From assembly GCA_029237695.1 (NCBI GenBank), contig CM055265.1, positions 220,337,679 through 220,401,678 on the forward strand: a stretch of 64,000 bases of DNA. Direction: 5' to 3'. The position numbers and the translations under genes were made by a program. The stretch comes from Conchocele bisecta (lineage: Eukaryota; Mollusca; Bivalvia; Lucinida; Thyasiridae). Each line of letters opens with the position of its first letter. The first letter of the stretch is position 1. The notes below the pieces were generated by a model. The model was given only the letters and a program-made list of their open reading frames with translations. It did not search any database and was not told the DNA's origin. This document shows positions 2,235 through 51,165 of the stretch, piece by piece.

Positions 2235-2462
2235 CTGTTCCCGGCGATTTGATGTCCGTTACATGTTTCGCCCTCGGAAGAACCGTCATAACGTCTGTGC
2301 CCTTGGCGCAAAGTTTATCTGCTAGTTCCGACGACACGCCCTGAGACTTCAACATGGCGCAGAATTTGGCGATGGCGCTCCCATCGTGCAGCGAGTCACG
2401 GATCATTTGACTCGCCTCTGCGAGGTCCGCGGCCTTACCACAGTTATGGAGGAGCTCGCCGC
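2235..2462 (-). CDS. TYMP: TYMP exon 6 (residues 297-373), last exon in window
   Basis: The acceptor is cacctgtag|GCGGC. The exon encodes [20 protein letters not shown], then [20 protein letters not shown] and [17 protein letters not shown]. This aligns with the family's (D)DGSAxxxFxxMxxxQG region and the start of the C-terminal domain. The donor read as ACAG|GTTGGT is weaker than the others, so the 3' boundary is the least certain in the gene. The following exon should supply the G-x-V-x-x-I/V-D C-terminal domain and is not in the window. Confidence 0.9.
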
Positions 2463-5400
2463 CTACAGGTGATAGACAGTTAGTGTTAAAAATATTGATA
2501 CAGTGGAGCCTCTCTAAACCAGACGCCCTGGGAGGTCCCCATGGTGTCCGGTTTAGAGAGGTTCCACTTTAAACCAGACATATAACCTTGCGAAAGCATG
2601 CGGGTGTGCTTTGCGAACTTGAACAGGCGTTGTTATCAAAGATAGATAACAATGACATCAGTAAACTTACGGACACAGAGACGACCTGCGTGTCCGGTTT
2701 AGAGAGGTTCTACTGTACGGTACTTGTGGCTGTTACGGGAGAAATGGGGCTTATGGGCTTTGCGAGCAGTGTAGCTCCTGATCAAATAGTACAGTAATGT
2801 AGCCTGATAACGATATGTATTGCTTGTGGGAAGCATGACCTTTCAGTGATGGATAGAATGGTGAACAGTGCCGATCCTGATCATACTGTGCGGATGCACA
2901 TGCTGATCTGCATCTACACTGGCTGAAACATACATAAGTCCCATTTCAACAGTCAAAAGCATATACTGTGTGTGCTTGATTTATTGCTAAGACAGCGGGT
3001 CCCACTGAACATTTGGCTACTGTCTGTTTCACGAAATCTGCCCAAATTTTACGACTATATAAACAATTGGTTCGATAATATTATATTAAATCAAAATTTA
3101 AGAATGAACCTTCTTTTTATTTCGTGAAATTTGGTCAAATATTGATTTTATTACGAAAAACTGATTTGTCTATGGAAATTTAACATGGGGGAAAAGGAGG
3201 TGGGGGAGCTGTGGGAGGAGTCAGAAAACGATAGCTTGTAAATGATCCAAGAAAACAAAAGTCACATGGGGAAATTGTTTTTTCGCAATAAAATCAATAT
3301 TTGACAAAATTTCACGAAATAAAAAGGAGGCTCATTCTTAAATTTTCCTTTAATTTAATGTTATCGAAAACAATATTTTTTTTGAATAGTTTATTTGGGC
3401 ACTCTTTCATAAATCACTGGCAGACAGTAAGTGTATATGTTATCTTCTGTCAGTAGCCCAATGAAATGACGACATTCTGATGGGCAGCACATCTATTTTA
3501 TCGGGGAGATAATCCGCGATCGTATATATATTTCCGAATAGTTAGTGCCTACTGACTGGGCATGTACCTTTAAAACAATCAGACACGGCATGGATATGGC
3601 GGTGGGATAAATCGCTTCGAGCAGGTTGTCCTGATGTAAATAAGTGACAAGTGTATAATTGTGTCATTATTCCTAAAGATTACGAGTCGCCGCTATACAG
3701 GTATACTCATTAAATAATATTTATTTTACTGTAGTGACGCGCGTTGGCATCAGGCTATTTTCATATGCAAATGAGGCATGGTATTATTTAATTATTTATA
3801 CTAATTACATGCGTCACCTGAACAAATAATATTTTTCACAAATTATAAAGTATGATAATTGCACATCATAAAAAAAAATAAATACAGAGTTTCAATTGTA
3901 CTGTACGTTAACATTTTAAGGAAACATGGTTATCGCCCCTGATATCAGTGTGGAAAGTTACGTCTGATATAAAATGTATATTGTTACATGGTTTCCGTTG
4001 TTTGCACATATATAGCGCGTGCTGTTTGCACATGGCTTTAGGCAATGCTCACTCCGGGGCCGCGCGTAATGGAAGTGCCTTCATGACGTCACTACGCGGA
4101 AGTGCCTTCATGACGTCACTACTTCATGACGTTCATGACGCGACCCCGGAATATGAATACCGAAAATTATCTACGTTAATGGGACAATTTATAAAAGTAC
4201 TGAAAATACTGAATATAATGCTCAAATTACATCGGTTTTTTGTTGGAAATTTAACAATAACTTTTCATCATGTCCAGCCGTGTGCAAACGTTTGCTGTGG
4301 CCCGAGGGAACTGTTTGAACCCGCGGCCGGCGGGTTCAAACAGTTCCCTCGGGCCACAGCAAACGTTTGCACACGGCTGGACATGATCAAACCTTATAAT
4401 AATGCCAATCAATACGTGGGGTAATGGTGAATGTATGTTTATTTTGCCAGAAAATGTATCAGATGATGTTTCTGATATGAAGAACATTTGTGCCTACTGA
4501 GTGGGCATGTAGCCCGGGTACACACTCCAGAGTATGGTTTAAGGTGGGGGTATGTACATCTGTATGGCGAACAGTGCAGACCCTGAGCAGCTGCGGATGC
4601 GCAGGCTGGTCTTGGTCTACACTTGTCGCATTTCCCAACTTCATAACACGTACCTAACATGACAGTGAGTTCAACGACGTCATCTGCGCCTGCGGAGTCG
4701 CCGTGGAGACACGCGATAGACTCGGCCACCTCGAGAGAGTTGCCGATCATCCGGCCGAGGGGCGTGTCCATTGTTGTGAGGAGGGCCAATGTGCGCATAC
4801 CACACCCTTTCCCCGCGTCAACCTACGTTGGCAATGTACACGCCAAGTAAATATAATACAAATACTACCTAAATTGTCGAGTGATATAAGCACAGTAAAG
4901 TTGAAATAAGCGAGCATATACCTTTTAAATGTATAAATACATTTAAAAGGTCTATTCCCGCTTATTTGAACATATGAGTAACATTTTTGCTGTGGTTATT
5001 GGTAATGCCTACTTAACGCTTAGACCGCTACACACAATAATTGTTGTCTGCTATTGCTTTTATATCTTGCCCTATTTCTCAATACAAACATGGTTTGACA
5101 GCACTTCAGAATCATTTCCAATGGAAATGATTCTGAAGAGCTGTCAAAGCATGTTGTAAATTATTCTAAAGTGCTGTCAAAGCATGTTTTTGATATTAAA
5201 AATGGAAAATAGAAAATAAACAGCAGACAACAACAAAATAAGATAGCGCTGTAAGGGTTAAACATATAGTGTGGTGCAGGCAACCCGACCCTGCCGAGCG
5301 AAACGTTGCCGACCTACTTGCATTGTAATTATGTAATACACCATTGAAAGTGCATTTTCAAATAGTTTAAAAATATGTAAATAAATAGAGAATCTCAAAC

Positions 5401-8400
5401 GAGTTCAAATTGGATATGAGATTTATGAAGTAAGTCGAGCACAGTTTATGCTCCGAGCCTCTGGCGAGGTGCATACATTTCGGAGTTTCATAAATATCAT
5501 ATAAAATGGAAACGAGTTTGAGATTCTGTTTATCACATGACTTCATCCTCCAAAGAGCAGCCAACGTGGAGATATAGAGAATAGTAGGTTAGTGCCGTGA
5601 ATGGGAAAAATATCTGGCAAGGCTTAGGAAACGGGATGGGCGAGGCTCTGCCGAGCCCATCCCGTTTCCGTGCCGCGCCAGATATTTTTTCCCATTCACG
5701 GCACTTACCTACTATTCTATTTATCCCGTCAACACCTACAAATAGCTTTAAAATGCAAAAGATAACTCCAGCCACATCCTCAAAATCGGAGAATCGACTA
5801 GCGTGATAACCGCATCACAATTGTATTGTTGCTACGCACACACAAAATAAGTCTGAGCCTTTTGGAAGCAAACATCGCTTAATGTCACGGTAGTTTGGTA
5901 TATTTTACTCAAAAACATTTTTACACGTATTTCTACTTTTAATAAAGTCGAGAATCATGAATATTAAAGTATATTTAATAATTACACAGCTGTGTAAACA
6001 CGTGTGTTCATGAGATTTTGGAGCGGCAACTTACTCGTTGCGTTTCAAACACACTGTCACTGGGCAGATATTTTACAATTAACAGCATGTACAGTTACTG
6101 TTTGTACACATGGAAGTTGTTGATGTTCAGTGTGGCTCCGGCAAATAGTGACTGGACATATTGCTGATTCGTATTACTGGATATTGTCAGCGATTGAAGT
6201 GCGACACCACTCTGCCTCTGGCCAGTCTGGGTATGTAAAGTTTCATTTTCACACGTGTTTACACTTGTCATAGCCATAGCAGAATTCCCATTGCAGCACA
6301 CACGTCAGCACTGATCTCTACTACTTCAACACCAACATTTTCAGCACTGCCACTACCACTAATGTCGTCCCAGAAAATTTCAAATATTCCTGGATCTAAA
6401 TAATCAGACATCTTTTTTTTTGGAATACTTTTCCAAACTCAAGTAGAATTTATAATTTATCAATGTTTTTGCTTTTTCCATTTTTATTCTTGCTTGCAGA
6501 AGACAGCAAAATACAATGGATTGTGGGACTTGGAAGGCTGCCAGTTAATGCAGCAAAAATGTAAACAAATACTCTTAATTTGTTTTTGTTTTCTTTCTTT
6601 CGGGTACTTTTTTTATTATCATTACATTATTTCATAAGTAAGTGCCAAATTTCAAATGTCAGCGCTTTTCTCAAGCGTATCATTTTGTTTACAAGACTTC
6701 ACCTAAATGTCAAAGGTTACTGTGTCAAAGTAGTTCTAAAGCATTATTGAAACACATATTCATACGCAGTGATTGGGTCGTATTGACTGGATATCAAAAA
6801 TGTTTCACGGCACCGTGTTTCACGGCACATAGGCACTGTGTTGACGGGATAAATCCAATACGTTTCATTCAGCAGACGCCATTGACTATTTTCGCATCTA
6901 GTTAAAAATCTCCACAAAGAAATATACATGTAGTTTTAATCCGAGCAGGAAAATTATTATAATATGCCATATAATTGGTTCCTGTTATTTGTAAACACTT
7001 CATATTACAAAACGGGTGCACATTCGAACACTTTCAGTAATGTTAAAGAGTCACTGACACTTCCAATGACGTTTCACATATGATAACGTCATTGTAAAAA
7101 CACCATTGCTTTGTCGCGCCAATACGGACGTTTGCAATTCAGAAAATGGTCTTCAGACGAAAAGGGGATGGTTTTGTTCTCAAAAATATGATTTTTTTTC
7201 TGAAAAAGTGCAGATTCTGAGGAGACGGCTCGTTAGGGTTTGCAAAAACCGCTACAGCGGGCTTTATGGTTCAAAGGGTCAATTACTACACACTGAACTA
7301 TCAAATTCTCATATTCAGAGACACTGTATCTACAGATGTAGTTACGAACAATAACTCTTGTAATATACTCCCGTACTATCCGTCGCTGCTACGAACGGTA
7401 CGATTGTAGATTGCATGTGTTACTGTTCGCAACTATCTCAGATGATGGCTCGTACATTCAATATGTGATGTTTAGCTTCATGCACTTCAGATTGGTTGAT
7501 ACACCAATCGCACTAGTTGATGTGGTCAAAGTTTGAGAAGTTTCTGTTTTATTCTTCGACGTAGTAGCATAGACATTGATAATACTATACCACCAATATA
7601 TTCTAGTACTAGCTGCATTAATTTAGTAACTATCGATTTCACAAACAAAGTCGCGTTTGTTAGATATTATGTCAGTAATATAGAGATAGTAGGTTTAAAC
7701 TGTATTTATTTCACAACGATTACAAACAAGCGCGAGAGCATTTATACAAATGCTTTCGTTGGCACAGATGAAGTGGTAAGGGCGGTCATTAATGTGGAAG
7801 GAAATCGGAGTACCCGAAGAAACCCACTTGTCCGTTCTGGCGACTACCATACGACCTCACATACAACCCCGGCCGAGGATCGAACCCGGGCCGCATTGGT
7901 GAGAAGCGCGCTCGTTACCGATTGCGCTAACCGGACAACCCATACAAATTGCTTTAAAATGCAAAAATAATAACCCCAGCCATCGCACATATTCATACGC
8001 AGTGATTAGATCGTATTGACGGGATATCAAAAATGTTTCACGGCACCGTGTTTCACGGCACATACGCACTGTGTTGATGGGATAAATATTCAACATGACA
8101 CTTTTTCAGGCCTCATAGGTACAAATGGGTTGAGAAATATCGTGCAAATAGTTTGAACTAATATGTTTCACCACTTTCTGTGAATATATGAGAACCAATG
8201 CCTCTAACATTTTCAGCTCCACTTGGCTCTATTCCAATGTTTGCAAACAGAGAGGATTCAGAGGAGCCGGCTTGAAACAAAGGGTCTCATCTGTATCTGC
8301 AATACTTGTGAATGTTTTACATTTTATTCTTCAACATTTTCCTCTTTTCTGATTAATTGAATGATCTGAAAGCGGAATTGATTATTCAATTCCAGTTACA

Positions 8401-11400
8401 TAGGGGTGAAAGTGTTAACCGACGTATGCATTTGTGCAAATGACTGAATAAATAGGACTTATGAGTTTTGCGGCCAGTGTAGATGCAGATGAGCGTGTGC
8501 GTCCGCACAGTCTGATCAGGATCTTCACTGCTCGCCATTCCATCAATGATCACCCGTCATGATTCCAACAAGCAATATAGATAATTATCTGTCTACAGTA
8601 GTGCATGATTTGATCATCAGCTACACTGGTCACAAAACCCATAAGATCCATCTCTCCAGTAGAATGTGTCTTGCCCTCACCATGCGGGTGGCGAGTTCGC
8701 GGGCCTCGGTCTCTGTCTTGCAGAAGGCGCCCTGCCCCACCTTCACGTCCAGAACCAGTACATCCAGCTTCTCCGCCGCCTTCTTGGAGATAATGGACGC
8801 TGAAATCAGCACAGTAAACCCACTACACCGCCTTCTTAGAGATAATGTATGCTGAAATCAGCACAATAAACCAACTATACATCGCCTTCTTAGAGATAAA
8901 AGACGTTGAAGTCACCAGAATACACACCATATACGCCGCTTTCTTAAAATACTTGCACCGCATAAGCGTAATAAACAATTTATCCACCGCCTGCTTAGAG
9001 ATAATGGATGCTGAACTCAGCACAATAAAACCTCTATGTACGCATCAGCGCAACAAACCCTATATGCACCGCCTGCTTAGAGATAATGGACGATAAAATC
9101 AGCACAAACCTTAAATGCACCGCATCAGCGCAATAACCCCTTTATGCACCGATTTCTGAGAGATAATGAACGCTTAAATTAGCGCATTAGACCATCTATA
9201 CATCGCTTTCATTGAGATAATCGACTCTGCATATCAACACACTAGATAATGGACGCTGAAATCAGCACAATAAACCCCATCCATACCCCGCCTTCTTAGA
9301 GATAATGAACGCTGACACAGCAAAATAATAAATCATCCATACCCCGCCTTCGTAGAGAAAATTGACGCGAAAATCAGCACAATAAATCTATACCCCGCCT
9401 TCTTAGAGATAATGGACGCTGAAATCAGCACAATAAACCGCATCCATACCCCGCCTTCTTAGAGATAGTGAACGCTGACACAGCACAATAATAAATCATC
9501 CATACCCCGCCTTCGTAGAGAAAATTGACGCGAAAATCAGCACAATAAATCTATACCCCGCCTTCTTAGAGATAATGAACGCTGACACAGCGCAACAATA
9601 TATCATCCATAACCCGCCTTCGTAGAGACAATGGACGCTGAAATCCGCACAATAAACCCTCTATACACCGCCTTCTTAGAGATAATGGACGCTGAAGTCA
9701 CCAGAATAAACGCCATATACGTCGAAATCAGCGCAATAAACCCTATATGTACCACATCAGCGTAATAAACCATTTATCCACCGCCTGCTTAGAGATAATG
9801 GATGCTGAACTCAGCGCAATAAAACCTATATGCACCGCATCAGCGTAATAAACCATTTATCCACCGCCTGCTTAGAGATAATGGATGCTGAACTCAGCGC
9901 AATAAAACCTATATGCACCGCATCAGCGCAGAAAACCCTATATGCATCGCCTGCTTAGTGATAATGGACTCTGAAATCAGTGCAAACCTTACAGTAGCGC
10001 TTTTCTGCAGGTGAACTATATGTACTATACCAATACTATACGTATATAATACCAATACGATATGTTTTCTATGCGATATGCATATAGTATAAACGTACGG
10101 TATGTTTGTACAGTACATACCAACCAATATCGTATAGATATACCATTAAAATCGTACGTTTATACGACTTTTATACATGTGTATAATGCTGGTACGTTTG
10201 TATCGTACAAACATGCCAGATTCTGGTATATTCATGCCATATCCGTACGGATATATCGTATATACGAACGGATATCGTATGTTTGTATAATATTTGTATA
10301 GTATGTTTGTACTATACGATGATACGGTACAGACAAACCAATAGTATATGATCATACGATATGCTCATTAAATATACCAATACTATACGATTACGATATG
10401 CATACGATATTAGTATATACAAACAGGTAAGGAGCAGAAAAGCGCTACTGTATATGCACCGCATCAGCACAACAATCGCTCTATGTACCGCCTGCTTAGA
10501 GATAATGGACGCTGACATCAGCGCAAACCTTCAATGCACCGCATCAGCGCAATAAACCGCATCCATACCCCGCCTTCTTAGAGATAATGAACGCTGACAC
10601 AGCACAATAATAAATCACCCATACCCCGCCTTCTTAGAGATAATGGACGCTAAAATCAATTCAATAACAACTATATGCACCGTCACCATAGAGATAATGG
10701 ACGCTGAAGTCAGCACAATAAACCCATTATATGCCACGTTCTTAGAGACAATGGACGCTAAAATCAGCACAATAAACCCATTATATCCCACATTTGTAGA
10801 GATAATGGACGCTGAAGTCAGCACACTAAACCCATTATATCCCACATTCTTAGAGACAATGAACGCTGAAATCAGCACAATAAACCTATAGCCACCTTCT
10901 TAGACATAATGGACGCTGTAACCAGCACAATAAACCCTCTATGCGCCACCTTCTGAAGGACAATGGACGCTTAAATCAGCAGATTAAGCCCGCTATACAC
11001 CACCTTCTTAGAAATAATGGACGCTGAAATCAGCACAATAAACACCATAATTATACATACCCCGCCTTCCTACAGATATTGGACGCTGAAATCAGCGCAA
11101 TGATAAATCCTCCATACCCCGAATTCTTAGAGATAATGAACATTGAAATCAGCACAATAAACCATTTATACACCGCCTTCATACAGAAACAAAAACGCCA
11201 TATTCATGTACTCCGCCTTCTTGGAGATCATAATATAAGCCGATATCAGCACAATAAACCCTCTATACGCATCCTTCATACAGACAATTGACGCTGATAT
11301 CAGCACATTATACATGTATAATGGACGCTGAATCAGCACATTAAACCATTCTATATCCCGTCTTCATAGACATATCGGACGATGAAATCAACACAATAAC

Positions 11401-14400
11401 ACTTGTATATACCGCCTTAAGAAAGACAATGGACGATACAATCAGCACACTAAACGCTCTATATCCCGACTTCATAGATATAATGAACGCTGAAATCAGC
11501 ACAATATACCTATTCACAGACTTCGTAGACATCATAGACGCTGAACTCGGCACTATAAACCCCATATACACTGCCTCCATAGATATAATGGACGCTGATA
11601 TCAGCACAATGAGCCGCATATACACCGCATTCATAGAGATAATGGACGCTGGAATTACCACAATAACCGCTCAAAACACCGCCTTCTGAGAGATAATGGA
11701 CCCTGGAATCAGCACAATTATCCCTATATATACCGCCTTATTAGAGATAATGGACGCTGAAATCAGCACAACCGCATTCTGAGAGACAATGGACGCTGCA
11801 ATCAGCGCGATACACCCTCTATCCACCGCCTGTTTAGAGATAATGGACACTGAACTTAGCACAATAACATATGTATGCATCGCATCAGCGCAAGCAACCC
11901 TCTATGCACCACCTGCTTAGAGAACATGGACGCTGAAATCAGCGCCATACACCCTCCATGCACCGCATCAGCGCAACAAACCCTTTATGCACCGCCTTCT
12001 GAGAGATAATGGACGATACATTAGAGCAATAAATCATCTATACACCGCTTTCAATGAGATAGTCGATACTGATTATCAGCACAATAGATAATGAACGCTG
12101 AAATCAGCGCAATAAACCATCAAAACCCCGCCTTCTTAGAGATAATGAACGCTGATACAGCACAATAATAAATCATCCATACCCCGCCTTCGTAGAGAAA
12201 ATGGACGCGGGAATCAGCACAATAAACTCTATACGCACAAGTATGATGTATTGAAATATTAAAGTAATCCTTCAATGCATATAGAAGATATGACATAATT
12301 GATAAACTCCGGCAAACTTCTTAACATGAGAACAAGCTAACAGTTGTGAAGGTCAAAAGGTCAAGGTCATAGTACGGGCAGTATGGATCTGTGGCATTTG
12401 TCCACAGGCTTGATGTATTGAAATATTTGTATTAAAGTAATACATCAAGGGATATAAAAGTTATGACAGCATTAGGAAACTCCGGCGAACTTATTAATGT
12501 GTGAAAACGTTCGATGTTGTCATGGTCAAACGGTCAATGTCATATTAAGGGCAGCATGGATGTGTGGCATTTATCCACAGGTATGTTGTGTGGAAATAAG
12601 TCATCGTTCAAGGACTATAGAAGTTATGACAGAATTAAGAAACTCCGGCGAACTTCTTAAAGTGGGAATATAAATTGTAGACGGTTAAAAGGTCATATTA
12701 AGGGCAGCATGTGTGTGTGGCATTCGTCCACACGTATACTGTGTTAAAATATTTAATTATATAAGTGATATAGAAGTTATGACATAATTGACATAATTGA
12801 GAAACTCCGGCGAACTTCTTAATTTGCCGGACACACGGGCACACGGACCCACGGACACAAAGGCACACAGACCGAACACTATGTAGCTCCGGCTCAACTG
12901 AAACCTGAGACCGGGGGTATAAACATTGTGGATTTGTCTACGATGTCATTACACGGACTTCATTCGGTAAGGCAACGTAACTCCCACTTCCGACGAATGG
13001 AACTGCAGAGAAATTAGTGGCGACCCTGATAAGCATATCTGGTCGATGCCAATGTGTTATCTGTCAACGTGTAGTATGTCAATGCAAGGCGAGTTTTCTG
13101 ATAATTGTATGTGCAGTGGAACCTCTAGTTCCCAGGGTGTCCGGTTTAGAGAGGTTTCACTGTAATTCCGATGTATGAGCACTGAAACACATGCTTGTGT
13201 GCATTGCAATCATGTGTACGCCGATAAACATCAGCGATATTTGACAGTGAAATCGATAATTATTTGTAATTCCGATGTATGAGCACTGAAACACATGCTT
13301 GTGTGCATTGCAATCATGTGTACGCCGATAAACATCAGCGATATTTGACAGTGAAATCGATAATTATTTAACACATCGACGTCGCAAGGTTGTTCGGTTT
13401 AGAGACGTTCGTCTGTATTGGAAATGTATGTTGATGATCGTTATACGCATACATACGTCTTTAAGTACTCATATACCAGTAGCCGAATTCACCAACATTT
13501 TAAAGAATACTTTTCTAGCAAAGTATACTTTGAGGGAGAAATTTTCAATTTAAGGATAAATTTATTTATTTTTATTATACTGAATCTATTACATTATCAC
13601 AGCCATTACAGTACGACAACAGGTGGGTGAGGTATGTCACAGGTCCGGGTCTTCCATCTGTCTTCCAATTGTGTCTCGCTTAGAGCGGCCTCCTATTATA
13701 AGTGTCCTCATTTATTTTTGATTTCTCGTACAGTGGGGTCAGTGGGGAACGAACCTGTCGTGTTCGTTCGTGTGTGCACTTACACGCTGACCCCATTGTA
13801 AATGGTTGCTGAGCAGTTCAGAATATTTACATATAAGCTTAACTGACAGTACGAATCTAAAATTAAGTTTGAACTTTAATTACATGTATTTAATAATCAT
13901 TTATATAATACTGCATCGGCTGTCGAGGGCGCCTTTTTACTGTATGTAAGCGTCCGATGTATGTTACTATTTTTAGGTATCGCCATTTTATTTATCTATT
14001 TTTAGAAGCATTAACTATGGCTGTCGGTCGCCATTTTTGGGCGACCTTTATAAGCCGGGACCGGTACCATCTGGTACCTCTGGTGTAGTTTAACTACACT
14101 AAATCATCAGATATTCATGCGCGGTGTAGTCGATTGATGTACTAATTTACTTCATAGGCATGTTAATGTATCATTTACATCAGTTTCAAGCATATGCTTT
14201 GGGATTATTTTATAAGTCGGAGCATGTTTGTCATGTGAGGCGGTTTCAATTACAGCCGCTCTGTTTTTGCGCCACCACCAAGGTGGGCACAGGAGATTGA
14301 ATTTACCGTTCGTAACAATAATGAAACCTATATTTTAATTAGTTAATATCCAGAGCAGAATGGGTGCAGGTTATGGGAAAATAGGTCCCACGACATCCAT

Positions 14401-17400
14401 ACGAAAAATGGAAGTAGCGGAGAATAGCAAAATGTGTGGTCATTGGTTTGTTTATACAGGAAAGATCTTTGGTGGTTGTGTATCTGTAACGGTAACTGTA
14501 ATGCTTGGCGAACGCGTGCATGGTGTGTGTAATTGATCAAATGGGATGGTCCAGTACCACGGCTAATGTAATTATTACGCCGTTTAAAACGGATAATTAC
14601 GGATCAGGAGAGGAAATAAATTGTCAGCGTAATAAGCTAAGAACAATTTTCTGTCTGTTCTTTCCTGCCGACGAATTTTGGCTATTAAACTCATCAGAGC
14701 TAAACACTATTTTTAATTTTCATCAATAACAAAAAAGTCACTATCTCATATGTATTGCCCCCGCACTGTGATAAATCCACGATCTCCCTCCCCCCCCCTG
14801 CCCCTCCCCCGCCCCCCACTAAGCCCAGGGTCAGGGTCACATAGTTGATGCATTAGAAATCTTAACGCTCGGGTAAATGTATTATAATATATGTATCCTT
14901 ACACGGATCTGCTTGATATTTAACTGAATATTTGCATACAATCTCTGTCCAGCCCTGACATTAGACAAACCGGATCTACTGTCAGGTCTTCACCACACTA
15001 TAGTAATCCCCCCCCCACACCACTCCCTATGAAAGTAGTAGGATTAGCACTGATCGCATTACTCTTATAACGGGATTAGCCGGATTCATCTCTCGCCTGC
15101 AAGAAAGCTAAACATGCGAATAAGGGCCAAGCCATGGATATCGCGCTCCCCGGCAAGAATTAAACCCATCGTTAAATTACCATTCACGCTGAAACATAGA
15201 TGTTAGGGTGTAGCTTATGTTATGCCTACCCTACTTAATATAGACGTATCATAATTGTATCCATGTTGGCGGCCATCTTTGATTTACCTTTGTTTATGGT
15301 TAAAGATCATTCGGTACAGTTTGGAACACAAGCTTCGCATTAAAAATATTACAAATATGATCTCCAATTATGTTCTATTTCTTTACTATTTTGTCGACCA
15401 ACAGCGCCCAAGAACTTAAGCTATACTTAGCGGCCATCTTGAATATCCCCACATGGTCAAATAATAAGTATATTACATGGACTCATTATTTTTTGTAAAT
15501 AATACATGCAATAATACCGAAATAAATGCAAACAACTGAATTATAAAAGTTCGTGAAAGTGTAGCTATTTATTTTTGTTATTCCACACACATTTACTGCA
15601 CGTCTGTGTGAATATTTGACGGCCATCTTGTATTTATATGAATTTGTCAGTGGAGAATTGTTTTTATAAGTTACCTAAACGTACTTCTATTAATGTAAAC
15701 GCATAATGTAAGTGCCGAACGCCATATAATAATCAAGTCTGAATATTTAAGACAAAACATTGATAACTGGCAGTCGTCTTGAAAATCGCAAAATAGACAA
15801 CGATTTGAACCACCATAAAACCGAATCGTTTCATATATGTTCTAAGGAAGAATACTCAACAATTTAAACAACTTTATCTGATATTTCAAGCATGATATGC
15901 ACGTATATATGATATAAAATATGTTTTTGAACTCGTTTGACCCCTTTGCACATAATGACCCCAAAAGTGACATTGTCCCACCTAATTTGATTGACCGACA
16001 CCGCATTCATGTTCATGAAGGTATGATGTATCAATCTAGCATATTCGTTGCTTTTGCTCTCTTGTGTTGAACAGAAGTCGTTTTAAGCCATTTCTGTTCA
16101 AAGTGCCCTTCCACTATCATGCGTGTAACTGATATTAGTCGAGTAGGCACTCCTATGTGTTCCATAGTGAACCTAGACATTCTGTTTCCTATAAACTTTT
16201 ATTGTTGTTTCATCTTTATATGGTTCCCTAGAACAAATTTAGCTTTGTTGCCCAAAGGTGTCGTTGACAAGTATCAAGAAATATTTGCCAAAAATCAGTA
16301 GAGAATGCGGCGAGCTGGTGAATAACTAATCAACTACGATCTCCCTATCACCAGTCCTCTGCCCAAAAGAGATTTAATTTTGAAGAACAAGAATAATAAG
16401 AAGGGACTGGTGAGTGTTGTGTCCAAGTTCTCCATAGGAGAGTAGATAACCATGGAGAATCTGGACGATTGTGTGTTTAGCCATGATGTGGCAGACATCA
16501 CCATTATATATTATGTCATTGAAGATGCAAACTATCACAAGAACGTTATCCGCATACTTAGCGATGACACAGGTGTGTTTGTCCTACTGGTGTATTGGGT
16601 TTATCGAGAGAAGCTACACTTCATGGTGCAGATGGAGAGACGGGACGGGACAGTGTTCGATATTAATGCCACTTGTACTGAGCCAGGTCCCAATTGTTTG
16701 AAAATACTGGGCATGCACGCCATCGGTGAGTGAGACACTTCATCATAACCATATGGCAAAGGCAATGCTAAAGCACAGAATACGTTGCTTAGTGCTGGCT
16801 TTTTAGACTTAGTTGATGTGTTAGGCGAGCGAAGTTGGTGTCACCACCGACGAACTGATGGAGACAGCAACGGTTTTCTTCATATTTATGTTTGGTTTGC
16901 CACCGGGAACTTCAATAGAAGCTGCCCGCACCAAACTTTTTGCCAGAAAGTCCTAAAATGAAGGTGCTGCCTCCAAACATCTGACAATCAACTCATACAC
17001 ACACGACGTGCCAGTCGTCAGGTAATGTTGTGGAAAGCGGCAAACCAACAAGACCCATCAAACGAGTCAAATGACATCACCAATTTGGGAGATGCGTGGC
17101 GGGGTTCCAGTTCCTGTCACTCATCAAGGTGAACCCACTCCACCACAGTTGGATCATGTATTTAATTGTCAGTTCAAAACACATGGACAGATGTGCATGT
17201 CTTGTGGGTCTTACAAAGAAGATATTTTACGCACATCATACTGCAACTGTTGGTGAGGATGGTTGCTGCAATCCGCATAAGAGGGAAGCTGAAATTGGAG
17301 GCAGGTGATACGACAGGGGCTGTTGAGGAAGTTGTTGAGGCAGATGATGTTGATGATTTTGAGGACTGTATTTGCGAGGATGGTGACATTTGTAATGGCG

Positions 17401-20400
17401 CGCTCTTTGGTGTACCTGACATCGAGTATCTGATTCATGAATGGGAACAAATAAAAAAGTTTTCAAAGAATATGTATTCGTAATGACATACATTATTGTC
17501 ATACCGCAGATAAGTTTCTCGGCTTTCGATTGGCTAGCTTGCCTGGTCATATATATTATATGACCTACCAAGGCCGTCAGACATACAGGAATTGCGATTC
17601 CCCTCCGGCGCCTCGCGTCCAATGAAGACACATTTTGCAAGCGTCTACCGATTGCGAATTGTATTCCTCACTATACACAATAAAACCCCGAATTGATCAA
17701 TAAAAGTAACAAATTGTACACTCAAAACCAGTCTTGTTTATTTTTCCATAAATATTCTTCGCTCATCAAAATATGAGCGAAAAATGCCACAAACTGTCCC
17801 GTTTAATGTTTTCAAATCTCAACAATATTGGCTTCGTGACACGGCTATATTTAGGTCATAAACTATGGGTTCCACGCACGAAATGCGGCGTAGCAATGAC
17901 AGAGAATATTTGGGAACCAGTCGCATTCTTCTAGAGGCACCAAAGGGAGAGCAGATCGATAGAGCAGTGGAATATAAATTAAATTACACGATATAAAGAA
18001 ATTGTCATAAAGTCGTTTTCGATGGATTTCTTACTTCATATTTAGTTTGTTTTCGTTTAATAAAAATACAAAATGTTCATATACGCCTTTGTATTAAGAC
18101 TGACGGTAGAAAATCGAATCTCGGATTATGTTTCTTCCTGAAAAAACGCAAATATCAAAAGCAAAGATATGTTTATACGGCCAAATAACGCATCTGCGGT
18201 ATGACAAATACGTTATTGTGATTTTACACAGGCTATATGGTGTAATATTGCCCGCTATCGCCTCGGGTTAACATACCTCCAGACGGGCACTATTACACCA
18301 TATAGCCTGTGTAGAATCACAATAACTTATAATATGTATTATGCATATTAATGTATACCATTGCGCTGACGTTTTCTTTATCTTATCTGATTAATATTGC
18401 AAATATAATCTAAGTATTATAATATGAGTAAGGATGTGTTTATAGGTTGGAACCGTTGACAAAAATCATATAATTCCAGAATAATTTATAAAGTGCCATA
18501 TATTCTGAACCGGTTCATGTTCTGTCAAATATACTGGTATTCTCAGATTGCTTGTATCACTCATTGCATTATTATTTACGTAATTACTTCATAGAGTAAT
18601 TATAGTTGCAAATAAATATGATTTTCATGGTTCATAACAATGGTTGCAACAAACAGTTGTCATTGAAATTTCTTTTTTTAATAGAAATTTTCATTATTTT
18701 GCATACAAATTTCAAATTTGACCCTACAATTACCTCTAGACCCTTATGATGACAACCAATTAACCATATTATATCATAAAACGGCTCTACGTACACGAAA
18801 ACCTACATAAAGACATATTATACATCATTGTATGACAAGTAGGTAAAAAGTTAGATTTTAAAAATGGCGACTGGCGGCCATCGTGGATTTATGCAAATTG
18901 CGAGATTTGCCCAAGGTTGCTGCTTGGGCAACAAAGCTACATTTACTGTATATATCTGTCGGAGCATGAATCAAGAAAAAAAGTTTATAGGAAACACAAT
19001 GTCTAGGTTCACAAAATGACTACTCGATTATATACAAATAACATATGTTTACACCAACGTCCGTGACAATCTACCCCGACAGATGCAAATATAGCACACG
19101 ATCGTGCCAAGTGCAAAACACAGACGTGCAAAACACAGAGATCTAGATACGCAAATCAACTTGTTTATTCAAACCCCGTGTGCAGCACACGTCTATGAAT
19201 GTCTTAATTAAGTGATCTTCACAATATATATTTGCAGCGTCGTGATTTTCTAGATAAAATAAGACAGGTTAGCAGACATGTAGAACCTTGTATAACACCT
19301 GGTGCCTTCCTGCAGCCCAGGTAGGATTCATACTAGCCCACTAAAACACTGAAGAACCCCTATTGTTCACCCACCCCAGTGTAACCTCCGTTACACTAGG
19401 GGTGGGTGAACAGTAGGGGGTTGGTTCTACAAAGATTTGAAACAACCGACAGCTACAGATACAGATATTTATTTATTCGCTCTGATATTTATTTCCAAAT
19501 AATAACAGGCATGTATACGTATTATAGAAATACACAATACAATGCATTTATTTTGCGAAAATATCATGATATAGCCACTGAAATGTTCAACAATAGGATG
19601 AATGTTAGAAGCCTGCATTGTTGTACTTTACAAAAATATATCCAAGATAAATCCTTAAAAACAATGTTGTAAATAATTCCTTATAATTTCAATCAAAATT
19701 CTACTTCAGCGATGACATTAAATTCCATTTGTATGTCCCCGGTCTCTGTAGAGTCGGGATGCATGTATAGATGTACATGTATAGCGTTTGGACTGTGTGT
19801 CCGTGTGTCCACCCGTCCGTGTGTCCATCCGTCCGTGTGTCTCCGTGTGTCCGTCCGTCCGTGTGTCCATCCGTCCGTGTGTCCGTTCGTGGTTAAGAAG
19901 TTTAGCGGAGTGTCTTAATTATATCATAACGTCTTATCCATTAAATGATTACTTTAATAAATTGTATGTGTGCACAACCGCCACAGATCCATGCTGCCCT
20001 TAATATAACCATAACAGATTGATATTTTACACCTCTGTTTAAACACTTTCGGTTTCAGTTAAGAAGTTTGCCGGCGTTTCTCCAATCTGCCAGTGGGGGC
20101 ATTCGTGTGCCGACAGGCACATTTTCTGTACATAGTGTTAGCAAATTCCAACGAAATGGTACGCCAATGTACACGTGCATTCCTGTGTATTCGTGAGGCC
20201 TCACGTCGCAATCAATCACGTACCTCCACACTAGCGCTGCTATACTGTGTAACTCTCTCGAAACAAATTGAAAGTTAACAGACGTAGGTGTAAGTATACC
20301 AGCCTGACATGGCCATTTTACATATATCTATAAATAAACATGGAATTCCTGTAGGTATTTCCCTGTTTATTATGGCGCGTCGCTATAGTCATGATCGATA

Positions 20401-23400
20401 TATTGCGATTGACAAAACAGTTTCTCATACTGGAGCAGTGGGTAAACTGGCGGCCAACGGTGACACTTGATTTTAATTTTGCACTACATGCGTTCGATCC
20501 ACACTTTGGCCATTATATATATATATACATTATTTTTTTTAAATATTGTTTTTGTGTTTTATAGTGAAGTGTTTTATAATGTTGTGTAAAAGTAAATGCA
20601 CGACTGTTTCGGGATGTGTGCGTTACCTCTAGCGCCAACATAGCAAAAGCGAGAGAAAAATGTATGCCTTTGGCAGGATTCTAACTCACGACCGTCCGAT
20701 CACCAAACAACGGATCTACCCACTAGAGCACTAAACGATGTTAGTATTATTAGCAATTCTATCGAATGTTAATGCGTTTGCGCTGGTATAACAAATACCA
20801 TGTCTACAACATATGACGTAAAGTATTTAAAAATAGCACGTGTTTACAATAATATTTACAATAATAACGCGCCAGCTCAAAACGGTACACCTTTTTAGTG
20901 TATACATGTGGTTCATAATGACCATGTCAATTGTTGTTACATGTAATAAAGATGCATTAAAAAGAAAAAGAAAACACAAAAACAATATTTAAAAAAAATA
21001 TATGTATATGTATAATGGCCAAAGTGAGGATCGAACGCATGCAGTGCAAAATTAAAATCAAGTGCCACCGTTGGCCGCCAGTTTACTCACTGCTCCAGTA
21101 TGAGAACCTGTTTTGTAATCGCTATATATCGATCATGACTAGCGACGCGCCATAATAAACAGGGAAATACCGACAGGAATTCCATGTTTATGTATTCACC
21201 AATGTTTATATAAACAAAGCATGTAAACAACGCCATGTCAGGCTGGTATACTTTCTTTCTTTTTTTAGTGATGCAACACATTAGTAAACACAATTATTGT
21301 TTGCTAATCTGCTTCATCACTGTAATTGTAGATTTATATCGAATTCACGAACACACGTACGTATGAGTTGACTGAAATAAATGAAATAGGGACTCCCCAG
21401 TGGATCACGGCATATATTATTATATTGTAGAATAACATACTACTTCGAATTTGATGAAATAAAATGATGCATTTGATGGATATATGCAAGTTATAGCCAC
21501 CACTATAACGTATATTATGTTCACTTGTGTCGTACTCATTTAGTGCAAAGCCTCTTTATTCGGAGCATCACTTTTACTTCCCCCTGTGGGTCGCCTCTAG
21601 CCACTGTCACATGACCAATATTACTTTAAACAATATTTTATTCATTCAATACAAGTGATAAATGATACATGGTAACTAATGGGATTTGGCCGAAAGCAGA
21701 ACTTATCGTGGTCATCTCCCATACATGACCAATATTCCCACTGCGATTGGTTAACAGGTCTTTTCTGTTTATCAAAATTTTCACTGCAAGTCACAAGTTT
21801 TATATTATATGTTATTTATAGTCCACAAAGCGAAAAACCACATACTGCATATCCAATATATCATCTGAGACACGGCGTCTTCAATGTTACCCATGCGTGT
21901 TCGACTTGCTTCGAAAGAGACCCCGGGTTCGATTCCCACCTCGACCTGCTCCGAATGGCCGATTCGGCGTGTCATTGGGCAAGACAACTTCGTGCTAGCC
22001 TAGTCCTATCGGATGGGAACATGCAAGGTGACAGTGCAAAGCATGTACATTTTTCCCCTCGAGAGCCATTTCTTTTGATGTTTATAATATATTCAATTGT
22101 TTATTTACGTCTCATCAACTGTACATAATAAAATACATACCAATAAAACAATACAGGTGCATGTACAATTGCCATTCAATAAGAATTATAAGAGATGTCT
22201 TAAAACACCAACTTAAAAGGACACCACACCAATAAGCAATACAAAATCAACAAACCATATATGCCTATGGGTTTTGTGACCGGTGTAAATGTTGATCAGA
22301 AACCCATTCGTGTAGTCTGATAACGATTTATACTGCTTGCTAGATGCATGACGGGTGTTTCATTGATGGAATGGCGAAGAGTGCAGCTCCTGATTAGACT
22401 GTGCGGATGCACAGGCTGATCTGGATCTGCACTGGTCGCAAAGCCCATAAGCCCAGTGTATCCACTCACAGCCACACTTATAACAATACCGTAGAAAGCA
22501 GAGGCAACCGAATCTATGTGACCTCACCTGCAATTAGACCAATGCTATCGACAGTGCCTGTGACGTCACGGGTAGCGTACATGATTTTGTCGGCGGGTAC
22601 CAGATTGCTAGTCTGGCCGAAAATGCAGCAGCCGATAGTGTCGAGGGCGGTTCTCATCTGGTCCTGAGATTGCGACACCGTGAAGCCCGATATTGACTCC
22701 AGCTTGTCCAGGGTGCCGCCCGTGTGGGCCAGCCCGCGCCCTGACATCATGGGCACCTGCGACACGTGACTTGAATGTTGTATCACGTGACAATCGATTG
22801 AACATTGATGATACGCGATTCGCAGGTCCGCTTTCCCAAATACATGAGTTGAGCGTATGCTACGCTTATTTACAACGAGTGGTACAAAAGTTTGATTTGC
22901 ATTAGAAATCGCCTTAATGCCTTTGTCGCCCCATCACTAGTATAACTGGCTCGAACATTTGGGGATCACTGTTTTATGTGGATGTGACTGGAGAAATGGG
23001 GATTATGGTATTGGCGACCATGTAGACGCAGATCAGCCTGCGCATCCGCGCAGTCTGATCAGCGTCTACACTGTCGACGTTCTGACACATCTAGCAAGTT
23101 ACTAACAAGCCGAATAGATCCTCTTCATCAGGTTGAATGCGTGTGCTGGTAGACCAGTGACAGTAAAGCTAGTATCTTACTGGGCTGCGACTGTTGGCGA
23201 CAAATTGCGAACGGAATGTGCGAGGGACTTTCCAAAATATCTCGAAAAGTTCGCAGGGGTTCTCAATTTCCTCGCGTGAGTCGCAGGGCCTCGCTCTCGG
23301 CTGGAATTTTGAACATGTTCGCGAAACAAATTTTCTCTCAAAATAGTCACAGAGTCGTCGCGGGTGTCTCGAACCCGTCTCGAACCATTCTCAATTTAGT

Positions 23401-26400
23401 TTCCGTGAGTCAGAAAGAGCGAGAAATGTGAGACAACTTTGTGAGTGGTTGGCGACCTATGAAACTAAATTGTGATTGATTGCAGACAAAAATGAAAATC
23501 TGACATTCCGGGCGCGTGACAGACGCGAACTGCCCTGGGACCCCTGGGACCCCTGGGACCCCTGGGACCCCTGGCACCCCTGGGACCCCTGGCACCCCTG
23601 GGACGCCTGCCTGGGACCCCTGGGACCCCTGGGACCACTGGGACCCCTGGGAGCGCGACAACATTGCGTATAAATTGAGTATAATTTGCGAACAAATTGC
23701 GACATGATTAAGACAATTTCTGACTAAATTGCGACAGTTGCAAGTGCAAAAGAATCGCAATTTCGTTGCGTGAATGTCGCACGAGTGTTGCGCGACATTC
23801 GCACATGTATGCGAACTCCCGGCGAATTTTGGCCCAAATTTCGCCTGCAGTTCGTGCGACATTCACGCAACATTCGTGCGACACGCGAACGTATCGTAAG
23901 TACCAATTCAGTGTGATTCGCGAGTTTGTGTCTACAACTAGTCGCGAGCTGTCGCAGCCCAGTGAGATACTACCTTCACCCAAATGTCTCCAGTCACAGC
24001 CACAAATAGCAGTGCGGCCATTGAAAGAAATTGACAAATATTGGCAAGATTAACACAGGCGATACATGATCACGTGGTTACAACAACAACAACGTCGCCC
24101 ACTCCAAAGTAAGTATTATTTGATAGTTTCTTTAAAATGTTTAATATGCAACGGACTTTGATGAAATATGGCCCAGCAAACGCGTCTTCATGAGCTTCAT
24201 TTGGTGGTATATGGAGTTTGGCAAAGACTTATGTCGTTTTTGCGAAGAATCGATTTCCGTGTCGGAGACACGGACATCGATTCTTCGCAAAAACGACAGA
24301 AGTTTGGGCGAAAATACAGAGACCACCAAATGCAGCTTAACAAGACGCGTTTGATGCGCTATATTGCATCAAAATCAGTTACGTAATAAGGACACTATAA
24401 AAGAATACGTACTTTGAATCGGTACTTGTTGTTGTTGTTAGTACCACGTGATCATACACCTTGTGTATGCCTGAAGTGTGTTCAATGTACGCGCCCACTC
24501 AGTCGGCACACACTGTTCTTTATAGGAATTTAATATAGGAATGAATGGCCTTTTTGTGGAATTCATCGGGATATAAACTTGGAAAAGTCGCGGGAATACT
24601 GGACGAAGGCCGGAAGGCCTCGTCCTGTATTCCCGCTTTCGGCCTTCGTCCAGTATTCCCGCGACTTTTCCAAGTTTATATCCCCGATAAAGATGTGTTT
24701 TCATGGAAAATGAGAAAAAAATGCTATATTTGCGGTCTACTTATTGTTTCTGTAGCATGATATAGGTACCACACAATTTTTATTGCTTTTTGATACTCGC
24801 TACTTCTGATTTCAATTTTGGTTTTTGGCAAATTTATTTGGGTATTTAAGCAAATACGCAGCTTATCCGGAGCTCTGGAAGTCAGACCTGTCTCATCACG
24901 AAAACAACAGTGGCACTTGTGTTGCTATTGGTTACGCGTCTGATCTGTCCATGGTTCAACCCTCACTACGCTTTTTTTAATTTTTATCTTAATTCTTAAC
25001 AAAAAAACAGTTTTGACAGCACAGTGGAGACGATTCTCATGCGCTGGCAAAACAGGTTTTTATCGAGAAATATTGAAAATAAAACATTTCCAGCAGACGA
25101 AAAAATTAAATTTAGCGTCGTAAGGGTTAATTAGAAACAAAATTGCTACCTCGCTGCGATATTCTCCCCTAGATGGCTATCGTAGGCGAAATAGTGTAGC
25201 TAAGGTTTAAAGGTACATGCCCACGCAGCAGGTTACACTGTACTACTACTGTTCATTTTCTGTCATGCCTTATATGAGCTATTTGTCTACCCACTAACGA
25301 GTTAATTTTAATTACGGCGCGTGTTAATTGGTGTTAAATCGCATTTTATATGCCGCGACCAGAAAGGGTATTTTCCGACCTCGTGCTATTTTTACCAATA
25401 CGCGTCACGTGACACGGTCAATCATATCACATCTTTGACATGCGCAGTGAAGTATCGGAAGTTGAGAAGAAAAATATCTGTTCGAGTCTAAATCTAAATC
25501 TCCAGATAACTCCATTTGGTGATCTGGTCGCCAATATTAACCACTCTCTCTCTGTACTGCCTGTCCCTCAGACATTTCGCCTTTTTTTTGGCCGACGCCG
25601 TTTCAACCAATTTCCGTCCTGGACGTTTCGACATATTGGGAAGCCTACTGGCGCGCGTAGTATACTGCGCATGCGCACCACAAGCCGTGATGTGAAAGTC
25701 GTCGCCCCCGCACATTATCAAAATAGACTGTTACCGCTGCGCGTCGCTAACAGTAAATTGATAATTAATAAATGATTATATTTGTATAGCGGGCACTCGT
25801 AATTTTTAGAACTGGTGGAATAGTGACATAATTATACACTTATTTAATTCCTATAAATAACATTTTGTGCCTACTGCGTGGGCATGTACCTTTAATGTAT
25901 GTCTAGTATTGTCTACCCAATGGTCCGTCATATCATTAACTAGTACGTGATTGTGAACATCAGTCGTAGGTAATGGATGTGTTGTATCAGTCGATGTCAC
26001 GGACAAATGTATGACATGTAACAATCTGCACATCATGCCCGTGACTTGAATATCTCTGCCATGTAATACTGCTGATATACATTTTCTCAGGACTATACAG
26101 TACGTGTTATAATATGTTAGGTGGTCTGTAAAATAGATATACATGTATATGCATTTATAATGGGTGTTCCGGGACATAGTCCACATCATTTGTCCTTCAC
26201 CTCAATATTAAGCACACTGTAAGCAGTGGGTGATTATGTCCCGAAAAACCCATTAAATATAATATATAACAATAATATATTTTCTTATATATTACCTTAT
26301 TGAAATGCGCAGCTGGGGCCCGTTTCACTAAACTTTGTACGACTAAAATGTTTGTAAGTCTGTAAATTTACATTAACACTGTTTTATGGTAAACACTTAT

Positions 26401-29400
26401 TGGATTTACATATATTAAACATAGGCTGCATATGCAGCCTATACTCAATAAATGTAAATTCATCAATTGAAATTTCCAGACGTTCCTAAATTTGCACTTA
26501 CGACTGCTTACCTTAACGCCACAGGCAGCGAGTGCGGGTGCCAGAACGAGGCTGACCTTGTCCCCGACCCCACCGGTACTGTGTTTGTCCACGATTGACC
26601 CCTGCCATTCCTGCGGCCACGACAGCACGTCTCCCGAGTTAGTCATGGCCCGGGTCAGGCACGTGGTCTCCTTGTTGTCCAGGCCACGGATGGACATCAC
26701 CATCAACATGGCGCCTGTGGAGAGAGAAATTTTGCGACATTTAAAGCTTACACTATACGTATTTCGCAACGACTACAAACAAGCGTAATTGTACTTATAA
26801 ATACATGTTCAAATTCAGGGGCGTCGGAGCAGGTCCGACAGGTCCGGCAGGTCCGGCCACTGCCGGATCAATACTTTTGACATATTTGTAATTCATGTAT
26901 AAAAAGCAACGGAATGTAAAAATATTTTTCTACAATTTTTATTATTTCTCATCAAAAGTGTATGTTGTTACCACTCAGTTGAACCGTCTCGGCGAGACAG
27001 TTCAACTGAGTGGTAACAACATACACTTTTGATGTGTAGCGGGGGAACCCAGTAGATTCGCCGGACCAATATTATGATGTTTCCGTCGCCCGTGCAAATT
27101 GCGTTGCAGATGGGGCGTTAGGGTAATCTTTAATATGGGATGAAACGTGAGTACCCGGATATTTTACAAGTATTACAAATATGCGCGAGAGCACTTATAC
27201 AAATGCTATCTTTGGCACAGATGGGCGAGCAAGGGTAATCTTTAATGTGTGAGAAAACTATAGTAGCCACTCGGCCGGTGTCGCGACCACGGTGTCATCT
27301 CAAATACTGCCCGATCGAGGATCGAACGAGGGCCGCATTGGTGTCAACCGGACAACCTGGCGACATTTGTGTCTGTGACTGGAGAAATGGGGATAATGGG
27401 TTGTGCGTCACGTGTAGATAAAGATGAGCATGTGCAGCCTCATAGTCTGATCAGGATATGCACTGTCCGTCATTTCATCACTGCAACCGCCTTCATCGAA
27501 TGTATATGGTTTCCAGATTACAGGGGCATGTTTCACTAGTGACTTCGTACGACTAAGAAGTTCGTAAGTGCAAAATTGAAATCCACAATAACATTTCAAG
27601 TGTTCTGACAGGCGATTTTTTAAATTCTTTAGTGAATGTGTTGCATTTAACCCTTTGAACCCGAAATCACGCTATATCAGGTTATGCAAAAAGTGCAGAG
27701 CCAGATGAGCCGGCTCGTAACGAGCCGTCTCATCAGGATCTGCACTTTTCGCAAATAATGTTCATATTTCTTAGAACAAAAACACCCCCTTTTCATAAAT
27801 GGACGAATCTGAAAATCATTTTGTGACCATTGGATTGGTCGGAACATTAGCATATTACAGTCCATTCCAGTTCCTTAGGGTTGAAAAGGTTAATGACATG
27901 AACACGTAGGTATACAAAATGGTAACATTAAAGAAACGCGTTGATGCGATAAGCAACTTCATAGAAATATTCGTACGAACAATTTTATCTTACAAAGTTT
28001 ATAGAAACGATCTATTTTAATCCCCATGTTAAATTCCCATAGTAAAATCTCTTCGCAATAAAATTATTATTTGATGGAATTTCATCTAAATTAGGGAGGG
28101 TGACTTTTTATTATTAATGTAAAAATACTGTCATTTAAATATTTTTTAGATTTGATGTGTGTAATAGCCAAAATGTTCGTCGGCAGCAAAACGTGGAACA
28201 AACAGTAGGCGTGTATATCGTACTTAGTGTCTGCATGTGCAGCAAACATACCGTAAAGGTGAAATATTTGGACCTGTAGCCTAAAGTCCCTGTTGAAAAC
28301 ATCGCATTACCCCACCCACCGGTTGTCGTACTGTACGTAATGTTATATACATTATCGTCCACATGGGGCGTACCACAGGCTGAACAAAAGGACATTACTC
28401 CGTTCAGCACCACATGCCTATACATAATGGTATTGTGAAAAAGTGTAGATCCCGATAAGGAGGCTCGTGACGAGCCGTCTGTTCATGATCTGCACGTTTT
28501 GCAACTACTGTTCATATTAATTAGAAAAAAACACACACACCCTTTGTATAAATGGACTAGTCTGAAAATCATTGTGTAGTGATTTGATTGGTCGGAAAAT
28601 TAACCCATTATCCCAATCCATTCCAGTTACTTAGGGGTGGAAGGGTTAAAGGTACGTGCTCACTCTTCATATTCGAAACACCATCTGAGACATTTTCTGG
28701 CAAAAATAAACATTCATTCACCATTACCCCACGTATTGATTTACACTATTATGCATTTTATATCAGACATAAAGTTCCACATTGATATCATGGGCGATAA
28801 CCGTGTTTCCTTAAAATGTTAACGGACATTACTATTTATTTTCTGCATTTATATTTTGATGTGCAATGATCATACTTTATAATCTGTCGACAATATTATT
28901 TGTTCAGGTGGCGCATTTAATTAGTATACATAATTAAAAAATATAATGACTGATTTGCATATGAAAATAGCCCGATACCACCGCGAGTCACTATCAGTAA
29001 CATAAATATTACTAAATTATTATATCTGTAATTTTTAGAACTGGTGGAAAAGTGTCACAATTATACACTTATATAATTCCCTCGAAATGACAATTCGTTT
29101 CCTCAATTCGTTCCCTCGAATTAACAATTCGTTCCCACGATATAACAATTATTTCCCACGTATTAACAATTCGTTTCCGTGGGAAAAAAATAAGTATGCG
29201 TCCCCAGCGGGGTTCCGTACGTATGAATGTGTCACAAGGTGAGAAAGATGCGCATTGGGTCGGACTCGAACCGAGGACTTGTGGGTTACCATACCGTCGC
29301 TTTAACCGACTGAGCTAACCGGGAACGAATATACACCTTCTCTCCATAGTGAGTTACGAACCGTGACATACTTCTCAGCCCAATTGAAATTCGACCCCGA

Positions 29401-50668: not shown

Positions 50669-51165
50669 ACACAGGTGAAATACTCGGACCTAGGATCCAA
50701 TACTTGGCTCATTTGCAAAACATTACCCCAGCCACGCATTTCATACACTATATCGTACAGCCTGGCTGACTCTGGAGCATGCTCGCAGCGAGCTACGCAA
50801 CCAGGGGCTTAAAGTAGGTCACTCCGTTAAAGTAGGTCACTGACATTACAGTAGGCCATTCACATTACAGTAGGTCACATACATTAAAGTAGGTCACTCC
50901 GTTAAAGTAGGTCACTCCTTTAAAGTAGGTCGCTCACATTAAAGTAGGTCACTGACATTAAAGTAGGTCACTGACATTAAAGTAGATCACTCCGTTAAAG
51001 TAGGTCACTCCTTTAAAGTAGTTCGCTCACATTAAGGTAGGTCACTGACATTAAAGTAGGTCACAGACATTACAGTATGTCCATCACATTAAATATGGGT
51101 GAGTGGGGTAATGTTTTGCAAATGAGCCAAGTATTGGGTCCTAGGTCCGAGTCTCCCACCTGTGA
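50669..51165. mobile_element. K-family ends enclosing an AGGTCA tandem array
   Basis: Ends acaggtgaaatactcggacc-tagg and cctaggtccgagtctcccac-ctgt are inverted, each followed inward by ttggctcatttgcaaaac. Inside lies the tandem array 50812-51090. Confidence 0.65.
50812..51090 (+). repeat. 18-19 bp tandem repeats each with an AGGTCA hexamer
   Basis: About 15 units of gtaggtcactgacattaaa or gtaggtcactccgttaaa. Ten carry exact AGGTCA. A five-unit higher-order pattern (ccgtt, cctt, cgctcacatt, ctgacatt, ctgacatt), about 94 bp, occurs twice. AGGTCA is the nuclear-receptor half-site consensus. Confidence 0.85.

Follow-up and report, generated by a model that had tools for sequence, protein, structure and literature searches.

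An array of exon 4 acceptor copies in intron 3 of a bivalve thymidine phosphorylase gene: a probable, mostly neutral minisatellite of the mirage type

How does a genuine splice acceptor win over copies of itself in the same intron, some of them identical to it across their last bases? This question is raised by the thymidine phosphorylase gene (TYMP) of the bivalve Conchocele bisecta, which we analyzed in a stretch of 64,000 nucleotides (nt; C1:220337679-220401678 of the 1.89-Gb genome), hereafter the window. Directly ahead of exon 4 (8800..12226, minus strand), intron 3 carries a junction-copy array of 48 degenerate units, in each of which the final 19 or more bases of the intron are joined to approximately the first 24 bases of exon 4, the commonest spacing being 54 nt. 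An earlier note, made from the letters of the window, had described the array as copies of the exon 4 acceptor and of the first codons behind it (A-S-I-I-S-K-K), and had suggested that they might compete for splicing, lengthen the protein, act as decoys or simply have expanded neutrally. Our analyses favor the last of these readings; we consider it roughly 80% probable that the array is a large, mostly neutral minisatellite of the type termed mirage in amphioxus, which has grown by unequal exchange and is spliced over.

Units were detected by approximate matching to a junction consensus of 43 nt at a cut-off edit distance of <=13, which returned 49 copies within intron 3 and exon 4; the last of the series is the true intron 3/exon 4 junction itself, whose acceptor region (8800..8818, minus strand) reads TTTACTGTGCTGATTTCAG. 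In the comparison with background that the earlier note had proposed, the other 60.3 kb of the window, scanned on both strands, yielded no copy within this limit (the best match had 14 edits), and the opposite strand of intron 3 and exon 4 gave two matches only, both at 16 edits; one match at 15 edits and two at 16 in the scan of the window gene are left out of the counts. Compared with the true junction, the 48 units are on average 0.818 identical (lowest value 0.651, highest 0.953), and 32 of them reach at least 80%, which bears out the proposed composition of the units. Exon 4 begins in phase 1 with (G)CG TCC ATT ATC TCC AAG AAG, encoding A-S-I-I-S-K-K as residues 201-207 of the gene model, among which the earlier note names Ser202 and Lys206 as the presumed substrate-binding residues.

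The tandem-repeat finder TRF resolves the array into periods of 54, 82/83, 56 and 163 nt, among others. The distance to the next acceptor is exactly 54 nt in 18 of the 48 units; further spacings are 50-57, 80-83, 34, 39, 62, 97 and 113 nt, and 541 nt across an inserted element. This insertion of 459 bp (9992..10450), bounded by terminal inverted repeats of 17 bp and flanked by TA at each end, lies between units 29 and 30, so that the 3.4-kb array is present as described but interrupted rather than continuous. The unit nearest to exon 4 (8828..8870, minus strand) keeps its AG; 52 nt separate its acceptor from the true one downstream, and translation from it runs into TAG, a stop, at codon index 9. 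The 163-nt period, reported by TRF at 9244-9710, shows that units are also repeated in groups, a pattern that may or may not reflect the concerted evolution, with boundary units excluded, that is described for mirages.

The source and the age of the array can be approached through its relatives. A protein search of the genome found four TYMP copies on C1, the window gene (A) and three paralogs (B, C and D), in a cluster at C1:220339914-220812642 (loci L009-L030). The array adjoins exon 4 in all four of them, with 48, 50, 19 and 43 units in A, B, C and D, respectively, the true junction excluded and weaker matches (14-16 edits in B, 15-16 in C and D) left out. When a 467-base array query was searched against the whole genome at the DNA level (very common words skipped, best candidates scored), all 38 of 38 matches fell into intron 3 of these four genes, some extending into the head of exon 4, and no array copy was found outside TYMP intron 3. 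Since the units match the junction far above background and their genomic matches are confined to TYMP, we take exon 4 to be the source of the array, as the earlier note had claimed; the same satellite away from TYMP in related species, which it had named as the sign of a different origin, was looked for in this genome, where the search found none. The units diverge from the true junction by approximately 18% (average identity 82-83%), far more than position-matched units diverge between paralogs: 1.25-1.45 of 43 sites (approximately 3%) among A, B and D, and 1.94 of 43 on average between A and C (17 pairs), where a pair with over 8 differing sites did not count as a match. The larger aligned pieces of intron 3 are 88.7-96.5% identical between A and B. 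Because the array is present in every paralog and its units are much further from the junction than the paralogs are from one another, the array appears older than the gene copies; judged from the sequences of this one genome, within which its presence and age were assessed, it is seeded by the exon 4 acceptor and predates the TYMP duplications.

Comparison of the paralogs further suggests how the array has changed since then. The 24 most distal units (units 0-23) correspond one-to-one in A, B and D, the gains, losses and insertions that distinguish these three genes being confined to the exon-proximal half, while many distal units are gone in C; the unequal copy numbers thus indicate length instability, as seen between paralogs. 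As for the 459-bp insertion, intron 3 of C contains one arm of its repeat, whereas neither B nor D yielded the exact repeat in that intron. The unit at -106 of paralog B has the sequence CGTCCATTATCTCC AAGAAGGCG. It carries TCC, as the exon does, at a place where almost every array unit has TCT; its head is of exon type for 23 bases and is followed by the tail of a different unit. When the 106-nt stretch from -158 to -52 of B is compared with the following 106 nt, only 2 of the first 75 positions differ (up to exon base +23), followed by 19 of the remaining 31. This pattern looks like the expected product of unequal exchange in which one of the breakpoints fell within the coding exon, a mechanism that we infer from its product.

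Are the copies still usable as splice sites? Units that retain the AG of the acceptor number 37 of 48 in A, 39 of 50 in B, 16 of 19 in C and 33 of 43 in D. Among these AG-intact units, 17 in A, 24 in B, 7 in C and none in D combine YAG (Y, pyrimidine) with a pyrimidine count at least equal to that of the true acceptor (12 pyrimidines in D), and 7, 11, 2 and 0 units, respectively, are identical to the true acceptor over the last 13 intron bases; acceptor strength is expressed here as a pyrimidine count, a crude measure. Donors were sought by scoring GT sites located 10-120 nt from array acceptors against the 9-position donor consensus. None reached 8 of 9 in any paralog; in A, 19 of 252 such sites scored 6 and 5 scored 7, compared with 6, 8, 8, 7 and 7 for the real donors of exons 1-5. 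These 24 sites make weak donor use inside the array possible.

We also asked whether the array evolves under constraint, comparing matched units among A, B and D, 124 pairs in all (42+42+40; C excluded, gapped cells set aside). Between these paralogs the AG columns differ in 8 of 248 cells as compared with 134 of 4967 cells elsewhere (Fisher p 0.55), and the cells that differ at the first, second and third codon positions are 17/963, 34/969 and 20/961, respectively, so that position 3 is not the fastest and there is no synonymous excess. On the codon-position counts we reject selection for coding repeats; selection for acceptors is rejected less firmly, as changes affect the AG columns at a rate similar to that of the other columns. 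Neither the AG nor the codon positions thus show clear constraint, which argues against the suggested decoy role and in favor of mostly neutral expansion.

Each of the remaining readings of the array has some evidence in its favor. The array could belong to a satellite or mobile element of the genome at large that came to resemble exon 4 through insertion or capture, as other repeats and an element with terminal inverted repeats lie in the same intron. However, a dispersed satellite is rejected by the confinement of all 38 genomic matches to TYMP intron 3, and the exonic bases of the unit encode residues found also in human and other bivalve TYMP, which makes the exon the older partner; we consider this origin very improbable. 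Scarcely credible, in our view, is the production of longer protein isoforms carrying A-S-I-I-S-K-K repeats joined by a hydrophobic linker. The spacings do lend themselves to it, as the earlier note had observed, since 18 of 48 units lie exactly 54 nt from the next, 23 of 48 spacings are multiples of three, and parts of the array are open in the frame of exon 4. When the frame set by exon 3 was read from each AG-intact array acceptor through to exon 4, 5 of 37 acceptors in A, 16 of 39 in B, 9 of 16 in C and 17 of 33 in D were in frame with exon 4, but none of the 125 (0 of 37 in A) gave a stop-free extension into it. The final distance between the last unit and exon 4 (52 nt in A, B and D; 88 in C) breaks the 54-nt phase. 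Moreover, 15 TYMP proteins (8 of them from named bivalves) contain no insert at the array position, as judged by eye. We therefore reject protein extension by repeats; nor does the array look like tandem alternative coding exons, for which neither an open in-frame extension nor a donor of at least 8/9 was found (some score 6-7).

A further reading, which we regard as unlikely, is regulatory: transcripts spliced to array acceptors would gain premature stops and be degraded, so that the dose of TYMP would be lowered and the copy number of the array would tune its level. Consistent with such poison splicing, A retains 37 AG-intact units, including the 17 as pyrimidine-rich as the true site, every AG-intact unit in the four paralogs reads into a stop or a frame mismatch, and within each array the AG columns lie slightly closer to the consensus than other columns. 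On the other hand, the AG columns are about as changeable as the others between paralogs, the AG-intact units nearest to exon 4 are not the same among paralogs, and stops in sequence of this kind are expected by chance. Equally doubtful is the view that tandem duplication in this genome favors splice junctions through a hot-spot mechanism rather than by chance, a view that calls for a look at other exons.

To this end, 28 myosin-head exons (20 + 8) were drawn from 71 genome matches; several come from related genes that lie in clusters and do not count as independent, and the edges used are those of profile matches, which can sit some bases off the true exon edge. A close copy was defined as a 40-mer with a nearby copy at <=8 edits, a level at which 20 shuffled trials, never below 12 edits, gave none. 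Three of the 28 exons showed junction-straddling duplicates with junction probes: L087, with an acceptor-straddling copy at 1 edit of 22; L084, with a donor-straddling copy at 5 edits of 26; and L075, with copies on both sides of the exon, the best extra acceptor copy at 3 edits of 27 and the best donor copy at 4 of 31 (chance may account for the more degraded copies there, with 8 edits of 27 and 9 of 31). Together with TYMP exon 4 these cases favor a hot spot. Yet close-copy 40-mers were no commoner at exon edges (7/56) than at intron points (16/80, taken at the first 20 of the same loci), they occurred at 23 of 300 points placed at random in the window away from exons and array and at 0 of 19 exon interiors, and the 11 other exon edges of the window gene's six exons have no junction copies (minimum 12 edits). 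In this small sample there is no excess at edges, and junctions as duplication hot spots are rejected. Given the lack of an edge excess over nearby introns, the boundary copies look like the tolerated, edge-crossing share of a high local duplication rate. The scoring edges of L085, L090 and L094 were judged by eye as intronic repeats beside the edge; L085 (761-1241) and L094 (663-1162) contain intronic tandem arrays that begin at or just past the donor, and the units in L094 include GTGAGT-like donor sequence. We may tentatively speculate that junction-straddling duplication is frequent genome-wide, that some of the growth of introns comes from duplication of their own splice sites, and that the spliceosome has to select the exon-proximal copy routinely from many near-identical ones. 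If true, this would amount to a permanent experiment of nature on exon definition and would keep a stock of splice sites from which introns could be gained.

We thus return to a mostly neutral, mirage-type minisatellite as the best reading of the TYMP array, and postulate the following course. A segment across the intron 3/exon 4 junction would have been duplicated in tandem, and unequal exchange or slippage would then have multiplied it to approximately 48 units; the structure is observed, while the mechanism is suggested by it. The array would have arisen before TYMP was duplicated into four copies and been carried along with them, after which its copy number would have kept changing, with an apparent exchange in one paralog whose breakpoint lies inside the exon head, and the copies would have evolved mostly neutrally. 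The spliceosome would join exon 3 to the exon-proximal acceptor, probably because this acceptor alone adjoins the rest of exon 4 and the exon 4 donor, and any transcript spliced to an acceptor further upstream would contain premature stops and fail to persist. Both of these would explain why the gene tolerates the array.

Several observations weigh against this interpretation. Correct splicing is deduced from the open frames and intact junctions of the exons found in the four paralogs. Some use of array acceptors is quite possible on sequence grounds, given that 17 acceptors of A equal the true one in pyrimidine richness and 7 share its last 13 intron bases exactly, and that the 24 of 252 GT sites of A scoring 6-7 are no worse than the exon 1 donor (6). 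All eight AG changes between paralogs fall on the G and none of 124 on the A, and within each array the deviation from consensus is nominally a little lower in AG columns than in others (A 0.115/0.141, B 0.110/0.130, C 0.079/0.127, D 0.116/0.141). The cells of the AG test come from three pairwise comparisons of three paralogs and are not independent, and weak selection, or selection on a few units, would escape it. Finally, some paralogs may be decaying and hence carry little information on constraint, since B and D have no exon 6 match in the genome protein search and the proportion of nonsynonymous differences (pN) exceeds that of synonymous ones (pS) in four of the six paralog pairs (A-B 0.060 vs. 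0.042; slightly below pS in A-C and C-D), a pattern that is unusual for a housekeeping enzyme.

The earlier note had called a satellite seeded at a functional splice junction unusual. This holds in part: the size of the array, its host group and its presence in four paralogs set it apart, while boundary repeats have been described in amphioxus (PMC3087553) and are seen at other exons of this genome. Amphioxus mirages are tandem repeats over intron-exon boundaries, known from Adh3 and the globins BflGb6 and BflGb9 (PMC3087553), with similar repeats in PGBD5 and troponin C (PMC3902484). The BflGb6 mirage comprises an intron end and the adjoining exon start, that of BflGb9 is built from the 3' boundary of an exon, and reverse transcription PCR suggested that splicing of the globins is undisturbed (PMC3087553). 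The TYMP array shares with them tandem units that span the boundary, splice signals retained in many, not all, copies, and unstable copy number, here between paralogs. It differs in its bivalve host, in having approximately 48 units as compared with 6 and 3 in two BflGb6 haplotypes, in its commonest spacing of 54 nt, and in occurring in four paralogous genes. In human CBS, the 844ins68 insertion also duplicates a junction, the distal copy being used and the mRNA normal (PMC2630376; the text of the source writes "donor", whereas the title of Romano 2002 in its references has 3' splice site), but this is a single extra copy and a human polymorphism. Another tandem array at an exon-intron boundary, the 31-bp variable number of tandem repeats of human CBS, sits at exon 13-intron 13, i.e., at the donor end of the exon (PMC1395315). 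Tandem genomic duplication in which copied splice-signal sequence provides new splice sites is a supported route of intron gain (PMC3443670); in TYMP, splice signals are duplicated as well, but the intron is merely lengthened and no new intron is seen. Narrow literature searches limited to open-licence papers found no mollusc mirage, and met the name for lancelets only. The TYMP array extends mirage repeats to a mollusc and adds the apparent re-feeding of an array from a coding exon. With 37 AG-intact acceptors in A, 7 of them identical to the true site over 13 bases, and with three further array-bearing paralogs, the locus offers a natural experiment on the recognition of a true acceptor, the central question being how it wins over identical copies.

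The host gene is modeled as six exons on the minus strand (2236..49085) with an open frame and GT/AG junctions: exon 1 at 48917-49085, exon 2 at 26512-26714, exon 3 at 22528..22756, exon 4 at 8681..8799 (its first approximately 24 bases being the exonic portion of the units), exon 5 at 4654-4822 and exon 6 at 2236-2462, the end of the last being approximate. Exon 3, supported by model and homology, is the last coding exon ahead of the array intron, and its donor, CAG/GTGAGG after base 22528, agrees with the position given in the earlier note. The 3' end of TYMP lies outside the gene model and seems to be beyond the window. The 372-residue product matches human thymidine phosphorylase (2j0f) with E=2.4e-113 and the Pfam families PF00591 and PF02885; among its 17 best protein matches, the 9 that are named are all from bivalves (Mercenaria, Mya, Mactra, Sinanodonta, Pinctada, Mytilus), and the closest protein is 70% identical. 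In all four paralogs, the exons that were found have open frames and intact junctions. Elsewhere in the genome, an uninterrupted thymidine phosphorylase-like frame lies at C895:1778669-1779421 (L001) on a 2.16-Mb contig, and is perhaps bacterial sequence assembled with the host.

Rfam gave no structured-RNA match at gathering score in the whole window. Just past the array, in the same intron, a perfect 104-bp tandem duplication (13161-13369; two copies, 100% match) is presumably recent. A short dispersed repeat resembling gtccggtttagagaggttccactgta was noticed by eye at approximately 2510-2600 and at 13120-13170, and also in L084 and L087, near two of the duplicated myosin junctions. Outside the six modeled exons, at 50809-51093, the window contains approximately 15 copies of a 19-nt unit similar to TTAAAGTAGGTCACTACA.

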